Below, piece by piece: positions 3,492 through 45,427 of a stretch of 49,458 nucleotides of DNA; the stretch's first letter is position 1; the number at the start of each line of letters is the position of its first letter. The translations under genes and the position numbers were made by a program. The notes beneath the pieces are model-generated. The model made no database searches and had not been told where the DNA came from. It was given only the letters and a program-made list of their open reading frames with translations. Source of the stretch: Prochlorococcaceae cyanobacterium ETNP18_MAG_14 (GTDB lineage Bacteria > Cyanobacteriota > Cyanobacteriia > PCC-6307 > Cyanobiaceae); the NCBI GenBank assembly GCA_030741055.1, contig JASLWC010000002.1, forward strand, positions 1 through 49,458. Reading direction: 5' to 3'.

Positions 3492-5642
3492 TAAAGGAGT
3501 TGGTGCTGGTTCGGATTGAGCCTCTTCGCCGTTCTGTGGAACGCCTCTGAGTGTGAGGTTGATTCGACCACGATTGTCGATCTCACGTATGCGTACGGTT
3601 ACCTCATCGCCTACTTTTACGACGTCTTCCACCTTCTCCACGCGGGCTTCTGATAGCTGGGAGATGTGGATCATGCCTTCTTTGCCCGGAAGGATCTCTA
3701 CGAAGGCACCGATTGGAATGATCCTGGTGATGGTTCCGTTGAAAACCTCCCCTTCGTTTACTTTGCGGGTTAGCCCTTCAATGATGCGTTGAGCGGCCTC
3801 AGCGGCTGCCCCGTCATGAGAGGCAATCGTGACGATGCCGCCGTCTTCAATGTCGATCTTGGTGTTTGTTCGTTCGGTGATGCCCTTGATCGTTCGACCT
3901 CCTGGGCCAATTACCGTGCCGATTAATTCCGGATCTATTCGGAAGCTCAGCAGGCGTGGGGCATGGGGAGAGAGGTTTTGTCTGGGAGCATCGATTGCTT
4001 CCAGCATCTTTTCAAGGATGTGGATCCTGGCAGGTTGGGCCTGATTTACGGCCTCAGCAATGGTCTCTACCGGTAGGCCGGTGATCTTCATGTCCATCTG
4101 CAGGGCAGTGATGCCATCCTTTGTGCCAGCCACCTTGAAGTCCATATCACCAAGGAAGTCTTCGATGCCTTGGATGTCTGTGAGGATCCGAACCTCATCG
4201 CCTTCCTTGATCAAGCCCATGGCTGCTCCGCTTACCGGGGCCGTGAGTGGAACGCCTGCATCCATGAGCGCCAAGGTGCTGCCGCAAACTGAGCCCATTG
4301 AGGTGGATCCATTTGAGCTGAGCACTTCGCTCACCACCCTGATCACGTAGGGGAATGTGTCCTTAGCAGGCAGCACAGGAATGATGGCGCGTTCCGCTAG
4401 GGCACCATGGCCAACCTCTCGGCGGCCGGGGGAGCGCATTGGACGGGTCTCGCCGACGGAGTAAGGGGGGAAGTTGTAGTGGTGGAGGTAGGTTTTTTCT
4501 GTGTTCGGGTTGAGATCATCCATCTCCTGGGCATCGCTGGGAGTGCCTAGGGTTGCTGTAGAAAGCACTTGGGTCAGTCCACGTTGGAACAGCCCTGATC
4601 CGTGTACTCGCTTAGGTAGTACGTCTACTGCGGCAGTGATCGTACGCACTTGATCAAGCTTGCGACCATCAACGCGTTTACCGCTCTTGATGATTTGCTC
4701 ACGCATTAGCTTTTTAGTGAGTGCCTTGAAGTTATTGCCCAAGGTTTTGCTATTGGCATTCACTGCCTTGCGAACGGCATCGTCTTCTTTGAGACCATCA
4801 ATGGCTTCAGCTGCTTTTGCCTTGATGGCATCAAGCTTGCTGTCGCGTTCGGCTTTGGTTTGCTCAAATTGCTTGAGCACTTCACCGATGGCTTTGCTGC
4901 AATTTTTTTCTAGATAAGTCGGCAGCTTGGTTTCTGCGACTAGGGGTTCTGGATGCACCTGCTCGATACCAAGATCCTTGAGGATGGATTCTTGTGCCTT
5001 AATCAATTCGCAGACGGCTTCATAGCCAAAGTCGATGGCTTCGATTACGTCCTGTTCTGGTAGCTGGCTTGCACCGGCCTCAACCATTACCACCCCATTA
5101 GGGGTGCCAGCTACTACTAGATCTAGATCACCGCGTTCGATTTCTCGATAGCTGGGATTTAGAACGAAATCATCACCTAGAAGCCCAACCCTCACTGCAG
5201 CCATCGGGCCCTGGAAGGGGATGCCGGCTAGCAAGGTAGCCATGGAGGCTCCGGTGACGGCCAGTACATCTGCTGGGACCCGTTCATCGAGGGAAAGGCA
5301 TGTAGCCACGATTTGGAGGTCATCCCTCATCCAGCTAGGGAATAAGGGCCTCATGGGGCGGTCGATAAGGCGGGCGATTAGCGTTGCGCGCTCTGGTGGG
5401 CGTGCTTCGCGACGCATGAAGCTTCCTGGAATGCGGCCAGCGGCATAGAGCCGCTCTTCGTAGTCGCAAATCAGGGGGAGAAAATCGATACCTTCCCGGC
5501 CTGAAGATCGGGTGGCGGTTACCAGGACGGATGTGTCGCCGCATTCCATCATCACGGAACCACCGGCTTGGGGGGCATATCGCCCAGTGGTCAGTCGTAT
5601 CTCCCTTCCATCGAAGGAGACCGACTGTGTCTGACCTTGCAC
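3477..5642 (-). CDS. pnp: Polyribonucleotide nucleotidyltransferase (PNPase)
   Basis: 721 residues, the usual PNPase length. It degrades RNA 3'-to-5' phosphorolytically and can add heteropolymeric tails, and it works as a trimer in the cytoplasm. Visible order: first RNase PH domain ([20 protein letters not shown]), a helical linker, and a second RNase PH domain with [19 protein letters not shown] and the acidic [16 protein letters not shown] domain (about 565-625, [15 protein letters not shown]) and an S1 domain (about 632-699, [17 protein letters not shown]) follow. The start codon is GTG 5642. It is last in the rpmH-to-pnp series on this strand but follows the rpsN terminator, so it probably has its own promoter in 5643-5743. 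Confidence 0.98.
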
Positions 5643-40528: not shown

Positions 40529-40615
40529 ACAGAAGTCACTACAGATGCTTATTAGTCTCTAGTAGATGTATGAAGCTGCCTAGATTTTCCAAGACTTGTC
40601 GAGGTGACCTCTCGA

Positions 40616-41629
40616 ATGGCGATGATTGAACTGAAGCAGCTTGAGAAGTCCTATGGGACTGTTCAGGCCCTAAAGGGCCTCAGTCTCAATGTGCCTCGGG
40701 GAAGTCTTTATGGCTTGCTTGGCCCTAATGGTGCTGGTAAGACCACTACGCTCAGGATCCTTTGCACCCTGCTGGCCCCTGATTCAGGCACTGTCAGCGT
40801 GGCTGGTCTTGATGCGTTGAGTGATCCCCGTGCTGTTCGGCTCGAATTGGGCTATGTCGCACAGGAGGTCGCTATCGACAAGATCCTTACAGGTAGGGAG
40901 TTATTGCAGTTACAGGGAGATTTGTATCACTTGCGCTCAAGCGATAGGGATGAGCGAATTGCTGAATTAATCGATCGTCTTGGAATGGAGACTTGGATTG
41001 ATCGTCGCTGTGGCACCTACTCGGGGGGCATGCGTCGCCGGATTGACCTGGCTTCAGGTTTGTTGCATCAGCCGCAGTTGCTAGTGCTGGATGAGCCCAC
41101 CGTTGGCTTGGATATTGAGAGTCGTTCTGCTATCTGGCAATTGTTGCGAGAGCTAAGAGCCAATGGCACAACAGTGCTTCTTAGCAGTCATTACCTCGAG
41201 GAGGTAGAGGCGCTTGCAGATCGTATGGCGATCATTGATGACGGGCGAGTTATCGCTGAGGGGACCCCTGATCTGCTTAAACAGCAACTCGGTGGTGACC
41301 GTGTAACCCTGCGCGTGCGGGAATTTAGCGATGCCAGCGAGGCCGAGCAGGTTAGGCAGTTATTGGAAGGAGTGGATGGCGTGTGCCAGGTGGTAGTAAA
41401 CCGGGCCCAGGGGTTTTCTCTAAACCTTGTAGTGGAAAGTGAACAGGTGCTACCTCGTTTGCGTGAGCAGCTTGATGGAGCCCAGCTTCCGGTGTTCGCT
41501 CTCTCTCATAGCCGCCCGAGCTTGGATGATGTTTATTTGCAGGCCACTGGCCAGACCCTGATGGATGCTGAATTGGCTGTCGCTGGCCAACGAGACGCAA
41601 AGCTGGAGCGAAAAAAAGCTATGCGCTGA
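40616..41629 (+). CDS. ABC-2 exporter ATPase (DrrA-like)
   Basis: 337 residues from ATG 40616; GTG 40604 and ATG 40622 are alternatives. Walker A GPNGAGKTT, Q-loop (LGYVAQEVAIDK), signature YSGGMRRRIDLASGL, Walker B LLVLDEPTVGLD and H-loop SSHYLEE are intact, with a C-terminal extension as in DrrA/CcmA-type ATPases. It pairs with the ABC-2 permease after 76 bp. Substrate unknown. Because it follows ctaA-ctaB, it may export something tied to haem or oxidase assembly, but that is only context. Confidence 0.93.
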   Translation: MAMIELKQLEKSYGTVQALKGLSLNVPRGSLYGLLGPNGAGKTTTLRILCTLLAPDSGTVSVAGLDALSDPRAVRLELGYVAQEVAIDKILTGRELLQLQGDLYHLRSSDRDERIAELIDRLGMETWIDRRCGTYSGGMRRRIDLASGLLHQPQLLVLDEPTVGLDIESRSAIWQLLRELRANGTTVLLSSHYLEEVEALADRMAIIDDGRVIAEGTPDLLKQQLGGDRVTLRVREFSDASEAEQVRQLLEGVDGVCQVVVNRAQGFSLNLVVESEQVLPRLREQLDGAQLPVFALSHSRPSLDDVYLQATGQTLMDAELAVAGQRDAKLERKKAMR

Positions 41630-41705
41630 TTCCTTTAAGTTCGTTTTACTTCTTTGGATTTGTCTTAATCCGCCAGTTTGCATTCGTTCTATCAACTGTC
41701 ACTCC

Positions 41706-42566
41706 ATGATCAGCCCTGTTGCCACTGTTACTACCCGTGCTGCAGAGCAGGATCAAGGGCCATTGGCTGATCTTGTGCAGGAAACGATGGCCCTGACCCG
41801 TCGGCTTTTCTTACAGCTGTTGCGACGTCCTTCTACCTTGATTGCTGGCATCCTTCAGCCCCTGATTTGGTTGCTGTTGTTTGGTGCGTTGTTCTCTAAT
41901 GCTCCTGAAAGTTTATTGCCAGGAGGCATGAGCTATGGGCGATTTCTCGGAGCCGGTGTGATTGTGTTTACCGCTTTTAGTGGTGCCCTAAATGCAGGTT
42001 TGCCAGTGATGTTTGATCGCGAATTTGGTTTTCTTAATCGCTTGTTAGTGGCTCCGCTGCGCAGTCGTAATTCGATTGTATTTGCTTCTGTTATTTACAT
42101 CACATCTCTGAGTCTTCTTCAGAGCCTGGCGATTATGGGAACGGCTGCCTTGCTCGGTTATGGCTGGCCAGGTGTGGCAGGTCTGGTGTTGGTGATATTC
42201 ACATTGTTGCTGCTGGTTTTTGCTTTCACTGCTTTGAGTCTTGGTCTCGCCTTTGCACTGCCAGGTCACATCGAACTGATTGCAGTGATTTTTGTGGCCA
42301 ATTTGCCTTTGTTGTTTGCGAGCACGGCTTTAGCTCCTCTTTCTTTTATGCCTGTTTGGCTTGGTTGGCTTGCGGCCTTGAATCCACTTACTTTCGCCAT
42401 TGAGCCCATTCGTGCTGCTTATGGCGGTTCCCTAGATCTTGGGGCCGTCTTGCTTGATGCTCCTTATGGGAGTGTGAGTGGTTATGGATGTTTGACAGTC
42501 TTGTTAGTGGTAACCATTGGGCTATTTCTGATGATTCGTCCTCTATTAAATCGTAAACTTGCTTGA
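41706..42566 (+). CDS. ABC-2 exporter permease (DrrB-like)
   Basis: 286 residues from ATG 41706 (MISPVATVTTR); the frame extends upstream to 41565 but is not protein-like. There are six helices of the ABC-2 type, starting with PSTLIAGILQPLIWLLLFGA and including the late LAALNPLTFAIEPIRAAYGG signature. It forms the channel for the ATPase encoded just before it. Substrate unknown. Confidence 0.93.
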   Translation: MISPVATVTTRAAEQDQGPLADLVQETMALTRRLFLQLLRRPSTLIAGILQPLIWLLLFGALFSNAPESLLPGGMSYGRFLGAGVIVFTAFSGALNAGLPVMFDREFGFLNRLLVAPLRSRNSIVFASVIYITSLSLLQSLAIMGTAALLGYGWPGVAGLVLVIFTLLLLVFAFTALSLGLAFALPGHIELIAVIFVANLPLLFASTALAPLSFMPVWLGWLAALNPLTFAIEPIRAAYGGSLDLGAVLLDAPYGSVSGYGCLTVLLVVTIGLFLMIRPLLNRKLA

Positions 42567-42921: not shown

Positions 42922-43614
42922 ATGTCTTTCCCTTCATTTGAGATTTTGAACCGTGGGTTGATTGTCTCTGTTCAGGCGCCCGAGGGTTCTCCAATGCGTC
43001 ATCCTCAGGTGATTGCAGCTATGGCTGAAGCCAGCCTTCGCAATGGTGCGGTTGGGGTGCGTTTGGAAAGTCCCGAGCATATTGGCGCCGTTCGACGCCG
43101 TTGCCCGGAAGCCTTGATTATTGGGCTATGGAAGCGTTCTTTTGCTGATAGTGCTGTTTATATCACTCCTGGCTGGGCGGAGGTTCAGGCTGTCTGGTCG
43201 GCGGGAGCAGATGTAGTCGCATTGGATGCCACGGCAAGACAGCGGCCTGGAGGGATAACTCTTGAACAGCTTGTGAGTAGGGCTCAGCAAGAGTTAGGTG
43301 CACCTCTGATGGCAGATGTCGACACTGTTGAAAATGGTGTACGAGCAGCAGAGCTGGGCTGCGGTTGGGTGGGGACGACTCTCTATGGCTATACAGAAGC
43401 GACGGCTGTCGAGAGACCTCCTGGTTTGTGTTTACTTGGGCCTTTGCGCCAGCAACTTGGCTCAGGCATCAGGCTGATCTGTGAGGGCGGGCTTAATTCG
43501 CCTCAAGTAGCACTAGAAGCACTTGCTACTGGTGCCGACATGGTGGTAGTCGGCACGGCCATTACCGGTATTGATTTGCAGGTCTATAACTATTGCCAAG
43601 AATTGGCGGCCTAA
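42922..43614 (+). CDS. nanE: Putative N-acylglucosamine-6-phosphate 2-epimerase (NanE-like)
   Basis: 230 residues of the TIM-barrel NanE family. It interconverts N-acetylmannosamine-6-phosphate and N-acetylglucosamine-6-phosphate. Key positions fit: the catalytic Lys71 in IIGLWKRSF and Glu188 in LICEGGLNSP, plus GADVVALDATARQRPGG, APLMADVDTVENGVRAAELG and GADMVVVGTAITGI. No other sialic-acid or amino-sugar genes lie nearby, so the job in this cell is unclear; it may serve cell-envelope amino-sugar supply. Convergent with groL. Confidence 0.9.
   Translation: MSFPSFEILNRGLIVSVQAPEGSPMRHPQVIAAMAEASLRNGAVGVRLESPEHIGAVRRRCPEALIIGLWKRSFADSAVYITPGWAEVQAVWSAGADVVALDATARQRPGGITLEQLVSRAQQELGAPLMADVDTVENGVRAAELGCGWVGTTLYGYTEATAVERPPGLCLLGPLRQQLGSGIRLICEGGLNSPQVALEALATGADMVVVGTAITGIDLQVYNYCQELAA

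Positions 43615-43750: not shown

Positions 43751-45427
<1,677 letters not shown>

Follow-up and report, generated by a model that had tools for sequence, protein, structure and literature searches.

The 49,458-nucleotide stretch of Cyanobiaceae DNA analyzed here (the window) encodes a NanE-like protein in which a substrate-binding arginine of the active site is replaced by glycine, and the proteins that carry this glycine form a single cyanobacterial clade. We tentatively favor, with confidence somewhat short of even, the reading that these proteins constitute a distinct cyanobacterial NanE-type subfamily with altered recognition of the C3 and C4 positions of the substrate, whose product would be passed to the NagA route for amino-sugar salvage and not for sialate catabolism. 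This reading draws on the family and fold of the protein, its retained active-site residues, the glycine at position 216, the confinement of that glycine to one clade, the NagA-like, NagB-like, MurQ, and ROK genes present in the same genome, and the purifying selection acting on the gene.

Orphan nanE genes in cyanobacteria are already known. A 2023 metagenome survey, which itself treated nanE as an indicator of sialic-acid catabolism, found the gene to be abundant in Cyanobacteriales with no accompanying nan cluster and called for experiments (PMC10570557). The gene is also listed among regulated genes in two cyanobacterial transcriptome papers (PMC9284123, PMC8400943). The new part appears to be the existence of a subfamily with a changed substrate-binding residue; no published report of a Gly variant of NanE was found in the openly licensed literature. 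A clade of cyanobacteria that lacks both NanA and the substrate-binding arginine would give steady false positives in surveys that use nanE as a marker. The clade would also represent a conserved enzyme of oxygenic phototrophs, for which the textbook name NanE may hide a somewhat different job.

A maintained member of the NanE family

The gene at positions 42922 to 43614 (forward strand, ATG start) encodes a 230-amino-acid 2-epimerase-like protein of the NanE family (PRK01130/PF04131). This identity, first proposed from the sequence by the original prediction, is well supported by profile and structural comparisons. The protein scores 265 bits against the NCBIfam model NF002231 (cut-off 189; E 3.8e-79) and 143.6 bits against the Pfam NanE model PF04131 (cut-off 27), and its top sequence matches in the PDB are solved NanE structures. 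Its AlphaFold model is a TIM barrel (pLDDT 86) for which the best 12 structural matches are all NanE entries (Z 25.3–27.4, rmsd 3.5–4.0 over 217–222 residues), with the next fold at Z 19.8.

No second NanE match exists in the assembly, which comprises 1.54 Mb in 140 contigs (of which the window is contig C63) and is 78.8% complete. The nearest named relatives, as judged by the NanE protein, are Prochlorococcus sp. MIT 0701 (87% identity) and AG-412-I05 (85%). The gene is under purifying selection and is maintained, and the ORF is genuine rather than a chance occurrence: dN/dS values relative to three close relatives are 0.09–0.13, although groEL is under tighter constraint, at 0.04–0.05.

Replacement of an active-site arginine

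The active site of S. aureus NanE has been described as consisting of Gln11, Arg40, Lys63, Asp124, Glu180, and Arg208 (Currie et al. 2021, PMC8482478). As reported there, Arg208 contacts the C3 and C4 hydroxyls of the substrate, and the alanine variant R208A has 3.7% of the original kcat and a KM of 31 mM compared with 2.9 mM. The same paper gives VG[SG]AxTR as a NanE signature, and Gly203 and Gly204 bind the phosphate; by this numbering, Arg208 is the last residue of the motif. A second signature, xPxIGIxK, is followed by a basic residue (PMC8482478).

Five of these six residues are kept in the window protein, as Gln18, Arg47, Lys71, Asp132, and Glu188. The earlier statement that the catalytic residues fit NanE holds for these five, among them Lys71 (codon at 43132 to 43134, forward strand), the equivalent of catalytic Lys63, and Glu188 (codon at 43483 to 43485, forward strand), the equivalent of Glu180 (roles as described in PMC8482478). 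It does not extend to the sixth residue. The equivalent of Arg208 is Gly216 (codon at 43567 to 43569, forward strand), and the standard active site that had been assumed is therefore not what this protein carries. The corresponding segment reads VGTAITG and departs from the first signature. The second signature is not matched either, as the protein has ALIIGLWKR, in which the Pro and the second Ile are replaced and Lys-Arg is kept. Many other members of the cyanobacterial class have PIIGLWK at this site, with the Pro retained.

These observations were placed in context by an alignment of 144 rows, which are partly redundant in that some genomes were entered twice and the locus pairs L067/L133 and L068/L138 are identical. 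Gln18, Arg47, Lys71 (144 of 144), Asp132, and the acetamide-side Tyr157 are found in every row, and Glu188 in every readable row. At position 216, 126 rows have Gly, 15 have Arg, and one has Asn, and two rows cannot be read there. Gly is invariant among the 126 clade rows that are readable, and Arg occupies the site in 15 of the 16 others. Every Gly row is cyanobacterial, comprising the window, 93 other Cyanobiaceae, and 32 other cyanobacteria. Of these last, 28 represent 21 families of the class; together with two Gloeomargarita loci, they were sampled from 89 class matches outside Cyanobiaceae. The rows with Arg or Asn come from Gloeomargarita (three), from phylum members outside the class (ten, termed non-photosynthetic here on the basis of that position), and from E. 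coli, Lacticaseibacillus, and Microlunatus.

The Gly216 rows make up one side of a single branch (support 100/99) in a tree of 69 rows. The clade is marked by eight residues (P20, H53, P166, C187, G190, T212, G216, and D218), and five of these (C187, G190, T212, G216, and D218) reside in the last two active-site loops, which serve the phosphate and C3/C4. A change from EGR to EGG was also considered as a sign of altered phosphate binding, and was set aside as weak given that canonical rows vary there (R, K, or H, with Asn182 in S. aureus; PMC8482478).

The NanE proteins of S. aureus, C. perfringens, Salmonella, and E. coli have in common with the window protein their fold, length, Gln/Arg/Lys/Asp/Glu set, and acetamide-side Tyr, but the window protein differs from them in having Gly216 and VGTAITG, in being encoded outside a nan cluster, and in coming from a family without NanA. 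The NanE proteins of non-photosynthetic phylum members and Gloeomargarita belong to the same protein family (32–48% identity) and have the same catalytic residues, but they keep the Arg and an SAITR motif that are missing from the Gly clade.

Possible consequences for substrate recognition

Most likely the chemistry follows that proposed for S. aureus NanE: Lys71 would deprotonate C2 of a 2-acetamido sugar 6-phosphate in its open-chain form, and Glu188 would help return a proton to the opposite face. The altered C3/C4 pocket would lead either to a weaker grip on ManNAc-6-P or to a preference for an amino-sugar phosphate with a difference or a substituent at C3 or C4. The product would most likely enter the NagA route, in which GlcNAc-6-P is converted to GlcN-6-P by an enzyme encoded elsewhere in the genome. 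The fixation of Gly across many families suggests either that the substrate needs no arginine at this position or that a neighboring residue such as Asp218 compensates for its loss.

Other readings of the same active site must be weighed. Because the remaining five residues are unchanged, ordinary ManNAc-6-P activity is quite possible judging from the sequence. In that event the protein would be a conventional ManNAc-6-P 2-epimerase in which the loss of Arg208 is compensated, for example by Asp218, and which would operate alongside ROK, NagA, and NagB in recovering ManNAc or GlcNAc from sources such as chitin or the cell's own envelope. We consider this plausible, at well under even probability; the fixation of Gly at a point of substrate contact argues against it. 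Of similar standing in our estimation is a more radical proposal, that the cyanobacterial "NanE" is an old vertical offshoot that is not a ManNAc-6-P epimerase and that might act on some other 2-acetamido sugar phosphate, one modified at C3 or C4 or bearing a substituent there, in a salvage route specific to oxygenic phototrophs. A muramic-acid-type phosphate is a candidate substrate in this case because MurQ is encoded in the genome.

Partner genes elsewhere in the genome

No NanA, NanK, NagA, or NagB gene is located within the 49-kb window, as originally noted, and the matches to nagA, nagB, ROK, and murQ are all on other contigs. Their presence means that the orphan status of nanE does not extend to the genome as a whole. 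A NagA-like gene on contig C127 scores 201.7 bits (equivalog cut-off 225.65) and a NagB-like gene on contig C129 scores 172 bits (equivalog cut-off 236.9), and the best family matches and best PDB sequence matches of these two proteins are NagA and NagB, respectively. MurQ is encoded on contig C75 (359 bits, cut-off 302). Contig C107 carries a ROK sugar kinase, which scores below cut-off against each of the models for glucokinase, GlcNAc kinase, and ManNAc kinase, and contig C60 carries a gene of the UDP-GlcNAc 2-epimerase family (positions 4571–5584). In this assembly, which is 79% complete, there is no match to NanA at E 1e-10, and NeuB is absent. The original prediction had proposed looking through the full genome for nanA, nanK, nagA, nagB, neuB, and UDP-ManNAc genes; this search recovered the NagA-like, NagB-like, ROK, and UDP-GlcNAc 2-epimerase-family genes, but neither nanA nor neuB. 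Hence, nanE is isolated on the chromosome, yet it is not without metabolic partners.

The ROK kinase and the NagA- and NagB-like genes also favor an ordinary epimerase, whose proposed pathway includes them. Several results weigh against routing the product to NagA. The NagA and NagB scores are below their equivalog cut-offs, no amino-sugar genes appear among the 25 commonest families of nanE neighbors outside Cyanobiaceae, and no source of ManNAc was found: across 151 Cyanobiaceae genomes, NanA never exceeds its cut-off, and three carry the GlcNAc 2-epimerase that acts on the free sugar.

Patterns of co-occurrence were examined across these 151 genomes, with nanE counted at E < 1e-30 and the remaining families at E 1e-10 or below. 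Partial, weak PF04131 matches (about 27–30 bits), although over the Pfam cut-off, were not counted as nanE. On this basis nanE is present in 86 genomes. The ROK family occurs in 84 of these 86 versus 8 of the 65 genomes without nanE, which favors an ordinary epimerase working with a kinase. MurQ (78/86 versus 41/65), the UDP-GlcNAc 2-epimerase family (83/86 versus 20/65), and NagB (77/86 versus 25/65) are also more frequent with nanE. NagA is present in 78 of the 86, but because it also occurs in 50 of the 65 genomes without nanE, it is not specific to nanE-bearing genomes. Most of the nanE-lacking genomes are small, so much of this co-occurrence can be accounted for by genes being lost together.

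The wider class provides a check on the ROK association, and there no special link is observed: ROK is found in 33 of 34 NanE-bearing genomes (picked from the 89 class matches and including two of Gloeomargarita) versus 36 of 39 class genomes inferred to lack NanE from their absence among the NanE matches listed (Fisher p 0.62). Those 39 are the members of the class among 46 genomes so inferred. The notion of a ROK kinase as an obligate NanE partner, strong in Cyanobiaceae, was dropped after this failure, which also counts against the ordinary-epimerase explanation. The Cyanobiaceae association probably reflects gene loss in streamlined genomes.

The physical arrangement of ROK genes adds a further distinction. 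Canonical NanE has a ROK kinase gene within 500 bp in E. coli and at 7 of the 10 loci from phylum members outside the class, an arrangement in keeping with an ordinary epimerase, and at none of the three Gloeomargarita loci and neither of two others. For the Gly clade, no ROK gene is on any of 28 class loci or on any of 105 further loci, nearly all from Cyanobiaceae. We infer that the kinase and the epimerase were ancestrally paired and that this association weakened where the arginine disappeared. The ROK kinases themselves also differ. The Cyanobiaceae protein lacks the zinc-site cysteines, reading CNSGNxGS[LI]E in eight of eight copies read (L089:7318–8307 and seven other loci), and four ROK proteins adjoining canonical NanE retain CNCGQxGC[ILV]E. 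This loss makes the substrate of the Cyanobiaceae kinase uncertain, which further weakens the argument for ordinary ManNAc salvage.

Possible sialate, envelope, and regulatory roles

The doubt originally expressed about a sialate-related role is upheld by the absence of any above-cut-off NanA among the 151 family genomes and of NeuB from the assembly. Matches to the NanA model do occur in 139 Cyanobiaceae genomes, but all are below cut-off (approximately 85–133 bits versus 382), and we read these as DapA. Sialate catabolism via nanE is very unlikely for this reason. That nanE forms part of such a pathway is suggested by the family name, but no nan cluster adjoins the gene in the window or at the synteny loci, and with NanA above cut-off in no genome the idea was rejected as having next to no probability. 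Synthesis of sialate by a NeuB-type enzyme was likewise discarded, given that NeuB is absent from the assembly and scattered within the family, in 67 of 151 genomes. Another rejected candidate is AGE (PF07221), a GlcNAc 2-epimerase known from other cyanobacteria that acts on the same sugar pair in unphosphorylated form. AGE belongs to a different Pfam family from the NanE-like protein, and its occurrence in 3 of the 151 genomes, not including that of the window, makes it a poor source of ManNAc.

It had been suggested instead that the enzyme may feed ManNAc-6-P or GlcNAc-6-P into envelope polysaccharide, and the form of this idea weighed here is a conversion of GlcNAc-6-P to ManNAc-6-P for that purpose. 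The UDP-GlcNAc 2-epimerase-family gene here and in most nanE-bearing genomes indicates that ManNAc-type sugars may be present in the envelope. However, enzymes of this family make UDP-ManNAc directly, with no ManNAc-6-P step, and the presence of such a gene would therefore weaken any direct need for NanE in envelope supply. NeuB, in addition to being absent from the assembly, is rarer with nanE (28/86) than without it (39/65). We judge this role to be improbable.

A regulatory function is less probable still. NanE and PII of E. coli reportedly regulate NagB by binding, and the NanE-like protein might act mainly in this manner, as the enrichment of nagB in nanE-bearing genomes would allow. The strict conservation of catalytic residues speaks against such a role, and genome streamlining acts as a confounder in the co-occurrence data.

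Gene neighborhood

Upstream of nanE on the same strand are genes for a DrrA-type ABC transporter ATPase (40604 to 41629; TIGR01188, 318 bits, above cut-off) and a DrrB-like ABC transporter permease (41565 to 42566, a mechanically called ORF whose true start is probably later), the latter separated from nanE by 355 bp. Downstream, groEL (43751 to 45424, reverse strand; TIGR02348, 820 bits) is convergent with nanE. This arrangement is part of an order strongly conserved in Cyanobiaceae: coxB/coxA, ctaA, ctaB, ABC ATPase, ABC permease, and nanE, with groEL and fabG on the opposite strand. The permease gene adjoins nanE at 68 of 71 Cyanobiaceae loci, including the window's own copy, and the remaining three are cut by contig ends.

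Outside Cyanobiaceae this order is lost. At the 28 Gly-clade class loci sampled there, the 106 flanking ORFs encode mostly signaling and TPR proteins, and an amino-sugar theme is absent from their 25 commonest families. The conserved order around nanE therefore looks like core chromosome order and not an operon of function. The UDP-GlcNAc 2-epimerase-family gene, considered as an operon partner, was assigned to the same conserved chromosome order; of 30 genomes checked, 26 have this gene or a relative of it 19–22 kb away from nanE.

Several smaller observations pertain to this region. The DrrAB-type ABC exporter genes that immediately precede nanE (40604 to 42566) are kept across Cyanobiaceae. 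The groEL product has a GGM-repeat tail, and no adjoining groES ORF is included in the window's ORF listing. Finally, CALPNT020000005.1, a record titled as a Bifidobacterium breve MAG, has the full Cyanobiaceae gene order around nanE, and its title is probably wrong.
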